DNA of 64,000 bases from Nocardiopsis flavescens (lineage in GTDB: Bacteria; Actinomycetota; Actinomycetes; Streptosporangiales; Streptosporangiaceae). The notes beneath the pieces are model-generated. The model did no database searches. It saw nothing but the letters and a program-made list of their open reading frames with translations, and had not been told where the DNA came from. The stretch is from NCBI RefSeq assembly GCF_900141985.1, contig NZ_FQZK01000001.1, positions 658,003-722,002 on the forward strand. The letters are read 5' to 3'. Positions 331-41,000 of the stretch are shown here, piece by piece. Within the stretch, counting starts at the first letter, position 1. The number at the start of each line of letters is the position of its first letter. Position numbers and translations under genes: made by a program.

Positions 331-561
331 GTGCGGGCGGTTCCGGCGACGGCGGCCACCGCCCGCTCGCGACCGGCGCGCGGGCGGCGTCCCCGGGCCC
401 GGTCCTCCTTCGGGGAGCGGCGGCTCAGGGACGTACGCGTCATCGGCTTCCGGTCGGGGGCGCGGACGTGGGAGCTTGCCGTGGTCACCATCGACGTCCC
501 GGTGGTCACCGCCGCCCTGCGGGAGGCCGAGTCCTGGTCCGGGCCCACCCCTCCGGAGTAG
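331..561 (+). CDS. Small hypothetical protein
   Basis: A 76-codon frame with a GTG start. An AGGTGG stretch lies about five bases upstream and could act as a ribosome binding site. The first 35 residues are Arg/Ala/Pro-rich, and the second half reads as a normal soluble protein (VRVIGFRSG, WELAVVTIDVPVV). Third positions are G/C-rich, in favour of coding, but no family is recognised. It could be a spurious frame in high-GC DNA. Confidence 0.3.
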   Translation: MRAVPATAATARSRPARGRRPRARSSFGERRLRDVRVIGFRSGARTWELAVVTIDVPVVTAALREAESWSGPTPPE

Positions 562-34997: not shown

Positions 34998-35065
34998 GCA
35001 CGTCCTTCGGCTCGGGAGCCCGTACGCGGGGCCCGCGGGTGGTCCGGCGGTCCGTCACCGCCGGT

Positions 35066-35244
35066 GCCAGCAGGTCTTCGGACTCGGGTTCGACCGGTAC
35101 GGGGCGCCTTCCCGGGGCGCGTGCGCCCCAGTGGCCGCCCGGGACGCGAAACCCCGGGACGTGCCCGCCCGTCACCCTCACCGCTGCGCGTCAGTCCCGG
35201 ATTCGCACCGGGTTCCCTGCCCCACGAAGTGGAGTACGACTGGC
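35066..35244 (-). promoter_or_regulatory. Cobalamin riboswitch upstream of cobG-cobH-cobIJ-cobM
   Basis: On the minus strand GCCAG (35244-35240) pairs with CTGGC. Inside are GGGAACCCGGTGCGAATCC, GCGCAGCGGTGAGGG, GGCCACTGGGGCGC, and the box GAGTCCGAAGACCTGCTGGC. The layout is nearly the same as the btuF element. About 70 bases separate it from the cobG ATG. Confidence 0.93.
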
Positions 35245-35292
35245 CCGAAGAGCGTACAACGTCCGCCTTCGGCCCCGACCAGCGGACTTGGC

Positions 35293-35651
35293 TTCCCGCG
35301 CGGGGGCGCGGGCCGCCGCCCGCACGGGCGCGTTCGCGCAGGAGGGGGCCGTTCCGCCCGCTACCCGACCGCGCCCGGCGAACGCGGAGGCGGCATCCCC
35401 GGGCCCCGGCGGTCCCGACCGTGCGGACGTGGGGGCTGCTGGGACTGCGGGGACTGCGGGGACTGCGGGGACTGCGGGGACTGCGGGGACTGCGGGGACT
35501 GCGGGACACCAACGCGTTCCCACCACCCCGTCGTTCCCGCGCGGGGGCGACCGGAGGCGGGCGCCACCCCCGCCCGCTCCCCCACCGCGCCGCGCGGATA
35601 CGGGAGCGGCGGTCCCGGCGGCGTCGACCCCGACCGTGCGGACGTGGGGGC
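35293..35651. repeat. Two diverged direct repeats flanking a 9-bp array
   Basis: Copy A (35293-35436) and copy B (35534-35651) both begin TTCCCGCGCGGGGGCG and both end CGACCGTGCGGACGTGGGGGC (21 bp identical, written here only for comparison of ends: 35416-35436 and 35631-35651). The middles are diverged but similar. They lie in the gap between the cobG riboswitch and the ABC permease gene. No convincing gene is seen. Confidence 0.8.
35441..35503. repeat. Seven perfect tandem copies of a 9-mer
   Basis: GGGACTGCG is repeated exactly seven times with no interruption. The number being a multiple of nine keeps any frame open, which makes spurious repeat peptides in several frames. There are no spacers, so this is not a CRISPR array. 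Confidence 0.95.
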
Positions 35652-35737: not shown

Positions 35738-36562
35738 TCAGGCGGGTCCGGCCGGTTCGGGCTCCCGCCGTCGCGCGGGGGCCGGGACGGCGGCGGAGCG
35801 GCGGCGGTCCCGGGTGCGCAGCCGGAAGGCGACGGCGGCCACCAGCACCGCTCCCCCGAACCACAGCGGCCCCAGCAGCAGGTGCGCGGCCGGCAGCGTC
35901 CCCCCGAAGCCCGCCGCCACCGCCGTCTGCATGGTCCCGTAGGTCGGCAGGAAGACCATCACCCCGCTGTCCGAGGCCGGGTTGGACACCGGGTTCTGGA
36001 GCCCCATGTCGATGATCGACAGCATGATGATGCAGAACATGCCCTCCAGCTCGCCCCGCAGCACCGACGCCAGCATCACCCCGATCCCCCCGAAGGCCAG
36101 GGCCGCGCCCAGCAGCGACAGCCACAGCACCACGGGGCGCTCGGGCGACCAGTAGAGGTGGATGACCGCCACCGCGTAGGCGCACACCAGGGCGGACGCG
36201 GCGAGCAGGGCGGTCAGCTTGGCGGCCAGCAGGTGGGCGCGGGGGTACCCCGCCACCGCCAGGCGCTCGTCGAACTCCGCCGACCGGAACGTGACGACGA
36301 ACATCATGAACCCGACGATCAGCGTCACCGCGTTGGCCGCCCCGGAGATCTTGCTGACGTGGTTGCCGTCGACGACGAGGGTCTCGTCGGTGGCGCGCAG
36401 CAGGAACGGCACGTCGGCGTCGGCGATCACCAGGTAGACCAGGGTGATCCAGACCGGGATGAAGAACACCACCAGCAGCAGGGCGAGCCGGTTGCGCAGG
36501 TGCTCCACGAGGGCGTACCGGGTGGCGGTGGTGTAGCGGGTCCAGGCGCGTCGCACGGTCAC
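35738..36562 (-). CDS. ABC-2 type exporter permease
   Basis: A 274-residue membrane protein with about six hydrophobic helices (LALLLVVFFIPVWITLVYLVI, AVTLIVGFMMFVVTF, LVCAYAVAVIHLYW, VVLWLSLLGAALAFGGIGVML, LLLGPLWFGGAVLVAAVAF). An N-terminal amphipathic stretch precedes helix 1. This topology is that of ABC-2 exporters of small molecules. The GTG overlaps the ATPase stop (GTGA), so the two form one exporter. The C-terminal 25 residues are charged and disordered. Confidence 0.82.
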   Translation of the reverse strand: MTVRRAWTRYTTATRYALVEHLRNRLALLLVVFFIPVWITLVYLVIADADVPFLLRATDETLVVDGNHVSKISGAANAVTLIVGFMMFVVTFRSAEFDERLAVAGYPRAHLLAAKLTALLAASALVCAYAVAVIHLYWSPERPVVLWLSLLGAALAFGGIGVMLASVLRGELEGMFCIIMLSIIDMGLQNPVSNPASDSGVMVFLPTYGTMQTAVAAGFGGTLPAAHLLLGPLWFGGAVLVAAVAFRLRTRDRRRSAAVPAPARRREPEPAGPA

Positions 36563-37197
36563 ACACCCGCCTTGTCGGGGGAGGCCGCCCGGGCCTCCTC
36601 CGCCAGCACCCCGCCCCGCATGCGCCACAGCACGTCGAAGCGGGCGGTGTCGAAGGCGATGTGGGAGACGACGAGGACGGAGCGGCCCCCGCGGGCCAGC
36701 CCCGCCGCCAGCTCCCAGAAGCGCTCGTAGGTCTCCCAGTCGAACCCCTGGTAGGGCTCGTCCAGCAGCAGGAGCGGCGGGTCGTGCATGAGGGCGATCG
36801 TGAGGTTCAGCTTCTGGCGGGTGCCGCCGCTGAGCGTGCCCACCGGCTCGTCGAGGTAGGCGGCGTAGTTGAGCTCCTCGGTGAGCCCGTGCGCGCGGTC
36901 CAGGGAGGGCAGGTCGTAGGCGACCTGGAAGAAGCGCAGGTGCTGGGCGACGGTGAAGGCCGGGTTGAGGACCGGCCGCTGGGGGCAGTAGCCGACGCCG
37001 TCGGGGTGCTCGACGGTGCCCCGGTCCGGGGACAGGCGGCCGGCGAGGATGCGCAGGAGGGTGGACTTGCCCGCCCCGTTCTCCCCCACCACCCCGGCCA
37101 GGCACCCCGGGGGGACGCTCATGTCGATGCCGCGCAGCACGGCGCGGCGCCCGTAGGACTTCTGGACTCCGGTGACCGTCAGGGTGGTCGTGGGCAC
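36559..37197 (-). CDS. ABC exporter ATPase
   Basis: A 212-residue ATPase. Walker A is VGENGAGKSTLL, the signature TLSGGTRQKLNL, and Walker B LLLLDEPYQGFDWE has an unusual Tyr-Gln after DEP and a Phe before the D-loop Asp. The switch region is VVSHIAFD. It begins at GTG 37197 with GGAGG upstream, 80 bases after the prenyl synthase fusion. Its partner is the overlapping permease. It probably exports the product of, or protects against, the upstream pathway. Confidence 0.85.
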   Translation of the reverse strand: MPTTTLTVTGVQKSYGRRAVLRGIDMSVPPGCLAGVVGENGAGKSTLLRILAGRLSPDRGTVEHPDGVGYCPQRPVLNPAFTVAQHLRFFQVAYDLPSLDRAHGLTEELNYAAYLDEPVGTLSGGTRQKLNLTIALMHDPPLLLLDEPYQGFDWETYERFWELAAGLARGGRSVLVVSHIAFDTARFDVLWRMRGGVLAEEARAASPDKAGV

Positions 37198-37277
37198 GGC
37201 GGGGGACCTCCGTCGGTGTCGGGGCGGGGGAACGGGGAGGGGCGGCGGCCCGGGTGCGGCCGCGGGGCCCGCGGGGG

Positions 37278-39500
37278 TCACTCCGGCTCCCGGTGGGCCG
37301 CGTAGGCGCCCAGGGCGCGGATGTGCACGGCGGTCCAGCTGGCGGGCAGGAGGTCCCGCAGGGGCTCCCAGGCGGCCGAGACCAGGTGCGCGGCCTCCTC
37401 CTCGCAGGCGGCGACGGCCCCGCACCCCTCCAGCTCCCCCACCGCGGAGGCGATGGCGCCCCGGTCCTCGCAGCCGTCCCGGACGGTCTCCCAGATCCGC
37501 CGCACCCGCTCCGGGGGCAGGAGCGCCACGGCGTGGGCCAGCGGCATGGTGGCCTTGCCCGCGCGCAGGTCCTCGGCGGTGTGCTTGGTGCGCTCGCTGG
37601 CGCCCGAGGAGGAGGGGGCGGTGACGCCCCGCAGGTCCATGACGTCGTCGCTGATCTGGTACGCGAGGCCGACGGCCTCGAAGTAGTCGCCCAGGGCCCG
37701 GACCAGGGCGTCGTCCGCTCCCGCGATGCGGGCGCCGATCTCGGCCACCCCCCGGACGGGGGCCGCCGTCTTGAGGCGGTGCACGGTGCGGATGCGCTCC
37801 AGCAGCGGCCCGGCGTCGCCGGTGGCGACCGCCCGGTCCATGGCCGGCCGGTGCCCGGCGATGTCCAGGGCCTGCCCGGCGTGGCCCGCGCGCAGCGCCC
37901 ACAGGTAGGTCCGGTAGACCCGCAGCCGCAGCGCGTCGTCGTCGGGCAGCACCTCGTCGAAGACCCGGTCGAACGCGAAGTAGGCGGCGGTCCCCGCGTT
38001 GATGGCGGCGGGGGCGCCGAACACCGTGTGCGCCGCCGGGCGCCCCCGGCGCAGCGGCGAGCCGTCCTGGACGTCGTCGACCACCAGGCAGCCGGTGTGG
38101 AGCAGCTCGGTGGCGGCCAGCAGGGGCCGGTAGGGCTCGACGTCCCCGCCGCACAGCTCGATCGCCGCCACGGCCACGTAGGAGCGCCAGCTCTTGCCCA
38201 GGCCCTCGGTGGCGTGGCGCATCGGCTCGATGAGGGAGGCGTGCAGGTCGTCCGCGGAGCCGGGGTAGAACCGCTCGGGGCGGTCCTCGCACCCGGCGGC
38301 GCTCAGCGGGGTGTCCCGCGGGAGCGCGGGGTAGAGGCGGTCGATCTCCTCCAGGGTGGTGTCGCGGATCCGGGTGACGTACCGCTCGAAGTCGCCGATC
38401 CTGTTGTCGGGGAACTCCTCCCACACGCCGTGGCCGCGCACCCGCCGGCCGGCCAGGGCGCCCTCGGCGTCGACGTGCGCGCAGAGCATGCCCGGTCCCA
38501 GGACCAGGGAGCGGATCTCCTGCCGCGGGAACCAGGAGCGCACGGACAGGCTCAGGCCCAGGTCGGGGGCCTGCACCTCCCAGGCGGTCGGATAGGTGTT
38601 GAGGCTGGACAGGGAGGTCCAGGGGTCCCGGGTGAGCACCCGGGCGGGGGCCGCCACCGGCTCCCCCTCGGGTGAGACGGCCACGACGGTGGCCCCCGCG
38701 GCGCCGTCGGGGCCGGTGCGGTGGACCTCCAGCTCCCAGCCGTCGTCCAGGCGCAGCCCCGCCCAAGACCACGCCGGGGCGTCGGCCGGCGCGGAGCGGT
38801 CGGCGCGGTGCCAGGGCTCGGCGTCGATGTGCTCGTACCAGCCGTCGCCGGCGACCGGCTCCTCCCGCCCGCGGTCGCGGACCACGCCGCGCGCCTCCAG
38901 GCGCGGGACGGTGTGGACGCGGGTGCCGGCGGCGTCCGCCGGGGACCACCGGCCGGCGCCGGGCCGGGACCTGCTCAGCGCGGGTTTGCCCGGGGTGAGC
39001 AGGAGGGAGAAGCCGTTCTCGCCGTCGGCCTCGACGACGTGGCCGGCGCCCTGCGCCCGGAGCCGGGCCACCCCGAAGTCGAGGTCCAGGCGGTCGCCTC
39101 CGGTGCGCACGGGGGCCGGCAGGACGCGGTCGGGGTGCAGGTCCCCCTCCCGCAGCAGGGTCTCCGCCAGGGCCGTGCGGACGCGGGGGTCGGTGCCCGG
39201 GTCCGCGGCGGCGGCCGCGCGGAGGAGGTCCAGGCAGCCCCGGTCCATCCAGGCCTCGACGCGGTGGTCCTCGGCAGGGCCGCTGCGGGCCCACAGCACG
39301 GCGTGGGAGTCCGCCAGGCCCGGCTCCGGGCCGGCGGCGCGGTGCCTCAGGAAGGCCGCCACGAGGCCGACCGGGCCGGCACCGGTCCGCACCCGGGCGG
39401 TGAACCACCACCACTCCGCGCCGCCGCGCCGCACCGGTGCGGCCTCCCCCGGGAGCACGGCCGCGGAGGTCCGCGCCGGCTGCACCGACGTGTGAATCAT
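37278..39500 (-). CDS. CrtC/lipocalin-like domain fused to a polyprenyl diphosphate synthase
   Basis: A 740-residue fusion. Residues 1 to about 365 resemble the hydroxyneurosporene synthase (CrtC)/AttH lipocalin-like fold: EWWWFTARVRT, GFSLLLTPGKPALS, GWYEHIDAEPWHRADR, WSWAGLRLDDGWELEV, and TYPTAWEVQAPDLGLSL. From about 400 to 740 is a trans-prenyltransferase with both Asp motifs, DDVQDGSPLRRG near 475 and QISDDVMDL near 618, and a KXG-like ATELLHTG region. Bulky aromatic residues are absent just before the first Asp motif, which usually means C20 or longer products. The ATG at 39500 has AGGGG upstream. Both domains look intact. Confidence 0.82.
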   Translation of the reverse strand: MIHTSVQPARTSAAVLPGEAAPVRRGGAEWWWFTARVRTGAGPVGLVAAFLRHRAAGPEPGLADSHAVLWARSGPAEDHRVEAWMDRGCLDLLRAAAAADPGTDPRVRTALAETLLREGDLHPDRVLPAPVRTGGDRLDLDFGVARLRAQGAGHVVEADGENGFSLLLTPGKPALSRSRPGAGRWSPADAAGTRVHTVPRLEARGVVRDRGREEPVAGDGWYEHIDAEPWHRADRSAPADAPAWSWAGLRLDDGWELEVHRTGPDGAAGATVVAVSPEGEPVAAPARVLTRDPWTSLSSLNTYPTAWEVQAPDLGLSLSVRSWFPRQEIRSLVLGPGMLCAHVDAEGALAGRRVRGHGVWEEFPDNRIGDFERYVTRIRDTTLEEIDRLYPALPRDTPLSAAGCEDRPERFYPGSADDLHASLIEPMRHATEGLGKSWRSYVAVAAIELCGGDVEPYRPLLAATELLHTGCLVVDDVQDGSPLRRGRPAAHTVFGAPAAINAGTAAYFAFDRVFDEVLPDDDALRLRVYRTYLWALRAGHAGQALDIAGHRPAMDRAVATGDAGPLLERIRTVHRLKTAAPVRGVAEIGARIAGADDALVRALGDYFEAVGLAYQISDDVMDLRGVTAPSSSGASERTKHTAEDLRAGKATMPLAHAVALLPPERVRRIWETVRDGCEDRGAIASAVGELEGCGAVAACEEEAAHLVSAAWEPLRDLLPASWTAVHIRALGAYAAHREPE

Positions 39501-39773
39501 GTCCGCCCCTGTCCACGGCCCCGCGGCCGCGCCTCGGCCCCGGCGCGCGAAAAGCGGGGACCGGGGCCTTTTCCTCATGACAGTGGGATGTTAGGGCAGG
39601 GAGAGCCGCCGCTACCGGCGTTTCCGCAAAGGGACGCGGCGCCATTCCGGGGTCCGGGGAAGCACTCCGGAAAGAGAATCACAAAGGACGCATAATCTCC
39701 GCCGAAAAGTCCGGTGGAAAGCTTTTTCGCCCTCTAGGGGACCAAGGTCCGCCCCTGTGCGGGGCGGGGGCGG

Positions 39774-40772
39774 TCACGGGCGGCCGGGCGCCGTCCCGGC
39801 CCCGTGCAGCGCCCCGTGCCGGTAGTCCCGGGGCGCCTGCCCGTACGCCCGGCGGAAGGTCCGGCTGAACGCCTCCGGCTGCGGGAAGCCGCAGCGCGCG
39901 GCGATCCGGTGGATCGGCACCGACGCGAGGGCGGGGTCGGCCAGCAGGCCGCGCACCCGCTCCAGGCGCCGCTCGCGGACCCACGCCGCCACGGTGCGCC
40001 CCTCCTCCTGGAAGAGCCGGTGCAGGTAGCCGACCGAGATGTGGTGGGCCGCGGCGATCGTCCCCGGCGACAGGTCCGGGTCGTGCAGGTTGCGCCGGAC
40101 GAAGTCACGGACCTCCAGGACCAGGGAGCGCCGCCGGCTCTCCGGCTCCAGCGCCTCCTCCGCCTCCAGGGCCTGCGCGAACAGCGCGGCGACCAGGTCG
40201 GCCACGGCCGTCCCCAGCCGCGGGCCGTCGCCTCCGCGGTAGGGCCCGGGCTCCTCGGTGAGGCCGGTGAGCATGCCGGTCAGCAGTCCGCCGATGCCCT
40301 CGCGGCCCGCCAGGCGGCGCCCGGCGAGGCGGTCGGTGTGGGCGCGGGGCAGCGGCAGCAGGTGCCGGGGCAGCTCGACGCCCGTGCACACCACCGGGCC
40401 CGCGTCGTTCCACGCGGTCAGCTCGAAGGGGCGGGAGGTGTCGATGACGTGCAGGTCGCCGGGGCCGTAGGCGGCCTCGGCCGCGTTCTGGACGTTGACC
40501 ATGCGCCCCTGCTGCACGAGGCAGAGGTTGTAGGTGCCGGGGTCGGCGCGGTCGATGAGGGCCTCGGTGCGCCGCAGCACGGCGGGGCGCAGGGCCATGT
40601 TCCACACCCGCACCTCGCCCAGGTGGAGGTCGCGCTGGAACATGCCGAAGTCGGCGGGTTCGCGGCCGGTCAGCTCCATGGGCGCCGCGGGGACGGTGTA
40701 CAGCAGCTCGCGGCAGAACTCGTGGCGGTCCGCCGCGTCGATCGTGCCGGTGTCGAACTCGCTCGCGATCAC
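39774..40772 (-). CDS. AraC-family transcriptional regulator
   Basis: A 332-residue regulator. About 1-200 is a cupin-like ligand domain of the AraC-binding-like type (NLCLVQQGRMVNVQN, GPGDLHVIDTSRPFEL). About 215-320 is the double helix-turn-helix: LSPGTIAAAHHISVGYLHRLFQEEGRTVAAWVR, and IAARCGFPQPEAFSRTFRRAYGQAPRDYR. The GTG start has GGAGGAGG upstream. It is the gene just upstream of the prenyl synthase fusion on the same strand, 273 bases away, and is the natural candidate to control it. Confidence 0.88.
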   Translation of the reverse strand: MIASEFDTGTIDAADRHEFCRELLYTVPAAPMELTGREPADFGMFQRDLHLGEVRVWNMALRPAVLRRTEALIDRADPGTYNLCLVQQGRMVNVQNAAEAAYGPGDLHVIDTSRPFELTAWNDAGPVVCTGVELPRHLLPLPRAHTDRLAGRRLAGREGIGGLLTGMLTGLTEEPGPYRGGDGPRLGTAVADLVAALFAQALEAEEALEPESRRRSLVLEVRDFVRRNLHDPDLSPGTIAAAHHISVGYLHRLFQEEGRTVAAWVRERRLERVRGLLADPALASVPIHRIAARCGFPQPEAFSRTFRRAYGQAPRDYRHGALHGAGTAPGRP

Positions 40773-40890
40773 TCGTCACCCTCCTCCGGCCGCCTCCCCG
40801 GGGGAGGCCGGGCCCGGTCCGCCGTCGTGGCCGCAGCCTAGGACACCCGTCTTTCAGCGGGCTTTCGCCCCGCGCCCCGGCACCCCGGCG

Positions 40891-41000
40891 GTACAGCGGC
40901 ACGACGGCACGGCGCCCCAGTGCCCCAGCGGTACAGCGGCACGACGGCACGGCGTCCCAGTGCCCCAGCGGCACGGCGGCACGACGGCACGGCGCCGCCC
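40891..41000. repeat. 40-bp tandem repeat, nearly three copies
   Basis: Units start at 40891, 40931 and 40971. The first two differ in one base of forty; the third is partial (30 bases, three changes). Each contains GGCACGACGGCACGGCG. The array fills the gap between the AraC gene start and the PepSY gene end. Spacer-less and too few for CRISPR. Confidence 0.92.

Follow-up and report, generated by a model that had tools for sequence, protein, structure and literature searches.

CrtC of Rubrivivax gelatinosus is a stand-alone enzyme of the carotenoid pathway. Its substrates are C12-C20 terpenes as well as lycopene, attacked at the terminal prenyl double bond (PMC12402844); Asp268 is proposed to protonate that bond (PMC12402844), and the required residues are given as Asp268, Trp110, Trp283 and Trp285 (PMC12402844) and as His239, Trp241, Tyr266 and Asp268 (PMC4717167). 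Here we analyzed a window, meaning the whole stretch of 64,000 nucleotides from Nocardiopsis flavescens (NCBI RefSeq assembly GCF_900141985.1, contig NZ_FQZK01000001.1, positions 658,003 to 722,002), which encodes a 740-residue fusion of a CrtC-family domain with an E-type prenyl diphosphate synthase. Like CrtC, the fusion has an apparent acid and a Trp-x-Trp pair in its CrtC-family domain; unlike the fusion, CrtC has no prenyl synthase part.

Other described proteins resemble the fusion in one respect and differ in another. Kievitone hydratase of Nectria haematococca (7A0Q/7A0T) is a stand-alone fungal protein with a prenylated isoflavonoid substrate and 13% identity. AttH of Nitrosomonas europaea (2ICH) has no synthase domain, and to our knowledge no function has been established for it. 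Stand-alone E-type synthases (e.g., 3OYR and 1WY0) share the synthase fold, both Asp-rich motifs and the catalytic residues. Fungi also have proteins that join a prenyl synthase to a product-processing domain, namely the chimeric terpene synthases and the bifunctional copalyl diphosphate synthases; their second domain is an alpha-helical cyclase of class I or class II. The present fusion, by contrast, has a beta-barrel domain of the CrtC type in that role and occurs in prokaryotes; the class I terpene cyclase domain of the fungal prenyltransferase-terpene synthases (PTTS) is missing, the partner matching CrtC/Lipocalin_9 instead. Chimeric terpene synthases of the class I type are said, in an excerpt of PMC8307374, to occur only in fungi. 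Among the papers listed from open-licence PMC text, we found no published report of a CrtC-prenyl synthase fusion or its function. The domains and folds are already known; what appears new is their combination. Going further than the original prediction, we find that the fusion belongs to a cross-phylum family with five-part relatives.

The fusion and its two domains are located as follows:
37278-39500, minus strand: CrtC/AttH-like plus E-type prenyl diphosphate synthase fusion, 740 aa (Pfam, AlphaFold and fold matches)
38355-39437, minus strand: N-terminal two-barrel CrtC/AttH/kievitone-hydratase-type domain (residues 22-382, as modelled alone)
37287-38258, minus strand: C-terminal prenyl diphosphate synthase domain (residues 415-738, with both Asp-rich motifs)

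The start was placed at the ATG at 39500 (740 aa); an alternative ATG upstream, at 39578, would give 766 aa. Polyprenyl_synt (PF00348) spans residues 422-688 (E 1.4e-41), above its curated cut-off, and Lipocalin_9 (PF17186) spans residues 240-331 (E 3.8e-9; 37.2 bits against a cut-off of 26.2). The CrtC family (PF07143) matches residues 29-224 below its threshold (E 0.004; 18.2 bits against 22.5), and relatives of the window fusion pass this cut-off, for example L149 (E 4.5e-10). Further, a profile built from 99 fusions matches AttH 2ICH with E 2.4e-30, and no terpene synthase Pfam family matches the fusion even at E 1. The AlphaFold model (pLDDT 90.9, pTM 0.92) sets the CrtC/AttH-like domain at about residues 22-380 and the synthase at about 415-738. 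The N-terminal domain is predicted to form two lipocalin-like barrels of the CrtC/AttH superfamily, with a confident fold also when modelled alone (residues 22-382), and the C-terminal domain is predicted to be an all-helical prenyl synthase. In the comparison of the N-terminal domain with solved proteins by VIA-align, Diels-Alderases also shared its fold. The original prediction, made from the sequence of this locus before any database search, had read the protein as a CrtC/lipocalin-like domain joined to a prenyl diphosphate synthase with both Asp-rich motifs intact; this reading is borne out by Pfam, the predicted structures of both halves and the motifs D475-D476-x-x-D479 and D618-D619-x-x-D622.

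A protein search listed 40 proteins, including the window's own entry P0001. Because 38 of them (P0001 and P0040 being left out of this figure) match the fusion at 28-87% identity over 73-100% of the query, a chance open reading frame (ORF) can be ruled out. Among the 31 proteins aligned (A1), P0040 lacks the N half, its sequence there being unrelated, and P0021 is shortened in that half. Scanning species genomes turned up at least 390 related loci, and the best 80 were kept and examined; all 80 encode a nearly full-length fusion. By record label, they belong to Actinomycetota (27), Myxococcota (21), Bacteroidota (19), Pseudomonadota (6) and Thermoplasmatota (3), with one locus each in Cyanobacteriota, Bacillota, Verrucomicrobiota and an unassigned bin. 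Carriers thus labelled include Legionella, cyanobacteria and metagenome-assembled genomes (MAGs) of Thermoplasmata. The members are mostly annotated as "polyprenyl synthetase family protein". For residue comparison we used a 99-row alignment (A3), which took in 18 of the 40 listed proteins, leaving out the other 22 (among them P0001, several repeated loci and P0040), and which contains near-duplicates such as P0024 and L017; a further alignment (A4) used 54 of the 80 N-domain pieces.

In the tree, the 99 fusion synthase halves form a single clade (100/100), in which 44 rows are of the actinobacterial type and 55 are not. Unlike the stand-alone synthases, they sit on a long stem of their own, and the tree program warns of long branches. 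The comparison set consisted of 19 stand-alone synthases from ten genomes (34 loci tried, 27 passing a motif filter, 8 of these being fusions); the filter removed L002, L003, L005, L124, L130, L134 and L136. Three of the window genome's four other synthases were left out of the tree, which contains no eukaryotic synthase. Pairwise identities of the N and C halves correlate (r 0.92, 4851 pairs), as would be expected of one old fusion. The distribution is patchy: the fusion was found in 13 of 200 genomes of the window's family and in 8 of 40 of its genus, counting G636, which has pieces at contig ends only. Among 396 sampled Actinomycetota it was found in the window genome alone, a possible undercount as two candidates were scored per genome. 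Plasmids carry two copies in Tolypothrix and one in Streptomyces canus.

Several unusual family members were seen. In one Nocardiopsis genome (L144, G649 355000-372000) the fusion is split over two frames, covering residues 27-325 and 303-740, which is either a pseudogene or a sequencing error; homologues of the window's ABC genes adjoin it. The locus labelled Klebsiella pneumoniae (L062, a MAG) carries a fusion that groups with the myxobacterial ones, and its neighbour clusters recur in myxobacterial loci, so that it is probably a mislabelled bin. A Nitrosomonas stercoris plasmid (L150:7359-9308) encodes a protein of 649 aa whose last two thirds are fusion-like, with no CrtC or Lipocalin_9 match.

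To return to the aligned fusions, D475, D476, D479, K577, D618, D619 and D644 of the synthase half are present in 99/99 rows. The first Asp-rich motif (window 475-479) reads DDxxD in all 99; the second (618-622) reads DDxxD in 44/44 actinobacterial-type rows and DDxxN in 55/55 others, the latter a further difference from stand-alone E-type synthases. Yeast and human geranylgeranyl diphosphate (GGPP) synthases also carry Asn at the last position of the second motif.

The N-terminal domain of the window protein holds W31, W221, E223, W244, W246 and E328, and the fusions show the pattern W221-x-[D/E]223 followed by W244-x-W246. Taking into account this pattern and the AttH alignment, E223 is the presumed counterpart of CrtC Asp268, and W31, W244 and W246 would correspond to W110, W283 and W285. 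Compared with CrtC, the window has Glu for the presumed Asp268, the gap from the putative acid to the Trp pair is 21 residues rather than the 15 of R. gelatinosus CrtC, and the conserved fusion columns offer, by this indirect comparison, no clear counterpart of His239 or Trp241. The apparent proton donor and Trp-x-Trp pair (W, D, W, W) are kept in 55/55 non-actinobacterial rows. W221, Asp or Glu, W244 and W246 are all kept in 19 of the 44 actinobacterial-type rows, and the acid position holds neither Asp nor Glu in 8 of the 44, five of which are linked to an MMPL-family gene. Arg or Gln replaces the putative proton donor in 5/6 MMPL-linked fusions (L016, L018, L019, L022 and L034), which suggests that the reaction may have changed or been lost along with the exporter change.

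Around the fusion, the following features were identified:
39774-40772, minus strand: AraC-type regulator (PF14525 and PF12833), a neighbour only, not conserved with the fusion
36559-37197, minus strand: ATPase of the ATP-binding cassette (ABC) type, probable exporter subunit (PF00005, E 9e-27)
35738-36556, minus strand: ABC-2 type permease (PF12698 weak, E 2.4e-4, under the curated cut-off)
35052-35259, minus strand: cobalamin riboswitch (Rfam RF00174, 70.7 bits), preceding downstream cob genes

The four genes of the original prediction are indeed all at this place on the minus strand. The fusion and the ATPase gene are 80 bp apart, and the ATPase and permease genes 2 bp. The riboswitch marks the lower edge of the fusion/ABC unit, and the ORFs beyond the permease, past the riboswitch, were taken for cobalamin genes.

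The ABC genes had been proposed as the exporter partner of the fusion, and comparison of loci supports this partnership. Of the 27 actinobacterial loci, 13 have homologues of the same pair flanking the fusion: nine on its downstream side and four, all in Streptomyces, upstream in divergent orientation. The permease at these ABC-linked loci is 48-95% identical to that of the window. On the S. canus plasmid the pair is likewise divergent from the fusion (by annotation). Within Nocardiopsis, a permease of at least 69% identity was found in 8/8 fusion genomes versus 0/32 others, two of the latter carrying paralogues of 42-45%. The chance of this pattern is about 1e-8 (1 in 40-choose-8) if genomes are taken as independent; in fact the genomes are not independent, and the genes are linked. 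This genus search looked for the fusion in 40 genomes at E 1e-100 and found it in 7. G636 alone, where a permease fragment disagreed, was searched again at E 1e-8 and gave an N-terminal fusion piece at a contig end; the other 32 genomes were searched at E 1e-100 only, a setting that could miss fragmentary fusions.

An MMPL-family gene adjoins the fusion in 6/27 actinobacterial loci (one representative checked by Pfam), and neither it nor the ABC pair does so in 8/27. Outside the actinobacteria, an AcrB-type pump lies directly upstream of the fusion in Legionella quateirensis; in Flavobacterium hydatis this upstream position is taken by an outer-membrane efflux gene together with genes that belong to the same pump clusters; and on the Tolypothrix plasmid a membrane-fusion-protein gene stands on one side, with devC and an ABC ATPase gene on the other. 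An RND-type cluster lies within 7 genes of the fusion in 7 of the 53 non-actinobacterial loci, and in most of the other non-actinobacterial loci the neighbour scan showed no exporter directly beside it. Clustering the neighbours of the best 80 loci revealed none kept across phyla. Nine loci, most of them myxobacterial, have a gene for a membrane-type protein of about 590 aa (cluster 5; L074:12292-14088) beside the fusion or close to it; the representative of the cluster has no Pfam match at E 0.01.

The AraC gene had been put forward as a dedicated regulator, a claim that has to be withdrawn. The gene does not stand beside the fusion at the other loci searched: in the syntenic G634 (N85-type) the order is cobG, permease, ATPase, fusion and aminopeptidase, with AraC absent, and its genus relatives in fusion-bearing genomes lie at other places (genus search). 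Moreover, an 81% orthologue occurs in G628, a genome in which the fusion search found none. Searching the fetched loci by tblastn (E 1e-6), the sole match beyond its own genome was a 41% partial one some 5 kb off in L013, many of the loci L086-L098 having only about 1.5 kb of flank. The unit formed by the fusion and the ABC ATPase and permease genes does not include the AraC gene.

A place outside carotenoid clusters had also been predicted. The sole PF00494 match of the window genome (7.17 Mb) lies on a different contig, where a further prenyl synthase gene is 1.7 kb away; a carotenoid pathway role was therefore rejected for the window fusion. L. quateirensis has the fusion with no PF00494 match in its genome. 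Taken together, the original prediction holds for the fusion, the ABC pair and the separation from the carotenoid locus, and fails for the membership of AraC.

A motif scan of 1208 predicted genes at 80 loci, a weak search with no positive control, found no canonical terpene synthase near the fusion. In a whole-genome Pfam search, PF19086 was found in 16/30 and PF13243 in 13/30 fusion genomes, compared with 0 and 2 of 14 control genomes; the positions of these genes relative to the fusion were compared for G000 and G603 only. Neither family matched at E 0.001 in 11/30 fusion genomes, UbiA-type and lycopene cyclases not being part of the search.

Some lineages have tailoring genes beside the fusion. 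The fusion operons of Spirosoma (L053) and Telluribacter (L060) contain genes for a glycosyltransferase, a lipase-maturation-factor-like protein, an FkbM methyltransferase and two P450s (one member per group checked by Pfam, the others by clustering or motif), and neither genome has a PF19086 or PF13243 match. In Cyanosarcina (L045), an FkbM methyltransferase and a UDP-glycosyltransferase gene adjoin the fusion. The plasmid of Tolypothrix sp. PCC 7601 (L148:9733-14262) encodes a 1509-aa protein with five parts in the order sulfotransferase, glycosyltransferase, CrtC, Lipocalin_9 and polyprenyl synthase. Its residues 320-1500 are matched by 17 proteins including itself (P0041-P0057) at E 1e-40. 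Six others of these were scanned at E 1e-5: four have all five parts, P0044 lacks a sulfotransferase match and P0055 a CrtC match. Among the names on the five-part relatives are those of a Polyangiaceae MAG (P0046) and of a haloarchaeon, Halocatena halophila (P0047); P0055 is a eukaryotic transcriptome entry, in which contamination is possible. P0047 and P0049 carry Asn in place of the acid and have an altered Trp pair, so the chemistry need not be uniform. The domain content of the long relatives suggests that hydration would precede glycosylation and sulfation.

Weighing these results, we consider the chances evenly balanced that the window protein is a bifunctional terpenoid synthase with its own exporter. 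We infer that chain making and modification occur within one protein, and we infer its reaction, substrate, chain length, direction of export and order of steps as follows. The C-terminal domain would condense isopentenyl diphosphate and an allylic diphosphate into an all-trans prenyl diphosphate of medium length, which might be C20 or longer, a guess from the small residues at positions -4 and -5 ahead of the first Asp-rich motif. The N-terminal two-barrel domain would then protonate the terminal isopropylidene double bond of the chain, the putative acid being E223 in the window and Asp in most relatives, and W31, W244 and W246 would stabilize the cation. The modification of the far end is most likely hydration, in which water attacks the cation and a tertiary alcohol forms. 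The diphosphate would be lost or replaced, and in the window's lineage the ABC ATPase/permease pair would export the product.

Instead of capturing water, the cation could close rings, the N-terminal domain then being a protonation-initiated, class II-like terpene cyclase or a pericyclase, and the fusion the prokaryotic equivalent of the bifunctional synthase-cyclases of fungi, for example copalyl diphosphate synthase. We regard this as unlikely. The many synthases matched by the synthase half do include copalyl diphosphate synthases of fungi, through their prenyltransferase domains, Diels-Alderases have the fold of the N-terminal domain, and in two of the 11 genomes without PF19086 and PF13243 the P450 and glycosyltransferase genes share the fusion operon. 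However, the two nearest solved enzymes with recorded reactions add or remove a group at the isoprenoid end without ring closure, and we know of no CrtC-fold enzyme that cyclises a prenyl diphosphate. We equally doubt that the N-terminal domain is a non-catalytic lipocalin carrier handing the prenyl product of the C-terminal domain to the adjacent exporter. Such a carrier would fit the Agrobacterium AttH-like proteins, whose genes adjoin those of an ABC ATPase and an FtsX-like permease, the presence of the ABC pair or an MMPL gene in 19/27 actinobacterial loci, the RND or DevBCA-like genes beside the fusion in L. quateirensis, F. hydatis and Tolypothrix, and the Arg or Gln at the acid position of 5/6 MMPL-linked fusions. 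On the other hand, the strict Asp and three Trp of the 55 non-actinobacterial members suggest catalysis there, most of their loci show no adjoining exporter in the scan, and the fused glycosyltransferase and sulfotransferase domains want an acceptor group.

It is very unlikely, in our view, that the N-terminal domain is decaying in the window's lineage, leaving a plain GGPP-type synthase in an incidental neighbourhood. The sub-threshold CrtC match, the Glu in place of Asp, the split Nocardiopsis copy in G649 and the dN/dS of the N half against the more distant L007 and L010 (0.76/0.84, versus 0.44/0.46 for the C half) agree with decay. Against Nocardiopsis sp. N85, however, the ratios are 0.36 (N half) and 0.32 (C half); the fusion co-occurs with the permease in Nocardiopsis, and the window genome has four other PF00348 genes. 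Decay is the least likely of these alternatives because the aromatic residues (W31, W221, W244 and W246) are retained, the fold is predicted with confidence and dN/dS is low at close range.

Terpene genome mining targets mainly helical class I and class II cyclases, and the fusion family, present in Actinomycetota, Bacteroidota, Myxococcota, cyanobacteria and archaea, would escape it. If the CrtC domain acts on its partner's product, as in our preferred reading of a bifunctional synthase, the fusion would supply its own substrate and lead to omega-hydroxylated or cyclised terpenoids without a cofactor; in some lineages exporters and tailoring enzymes adjoin the fusion protein or form part of it. 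We tentatively propose, at somewhat less than even likelihood, that the CrtC-prenyl synthase fusions of bacteria and archaea make up a class of bifunctional terpene synthases that has so far gone unrecognised, in which protonation by a beta-barrel domain, on a chain supplied by the partner domain, replaces the canonical synthases and which head a hidden group of exported, often glycosylated and sulfated terpenoids; the sulfotransferase-glycosyltransferase-CrtC-synthase polypeptide of Tolypothrix, the Polyangiaceae MAG and Halocatena would then be an assembly line for terpenoid sulfoglycosides.

Above the AraC gene of the window lie a PepSY-type ORF (Pfam) and two further ORFs, read as a two-component pair. 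Tandem repeats flank the gene set, at 35431-35505 (9 bp, 8.3 copies) and at 40872-40996 (40 bp, 3.1 copies).

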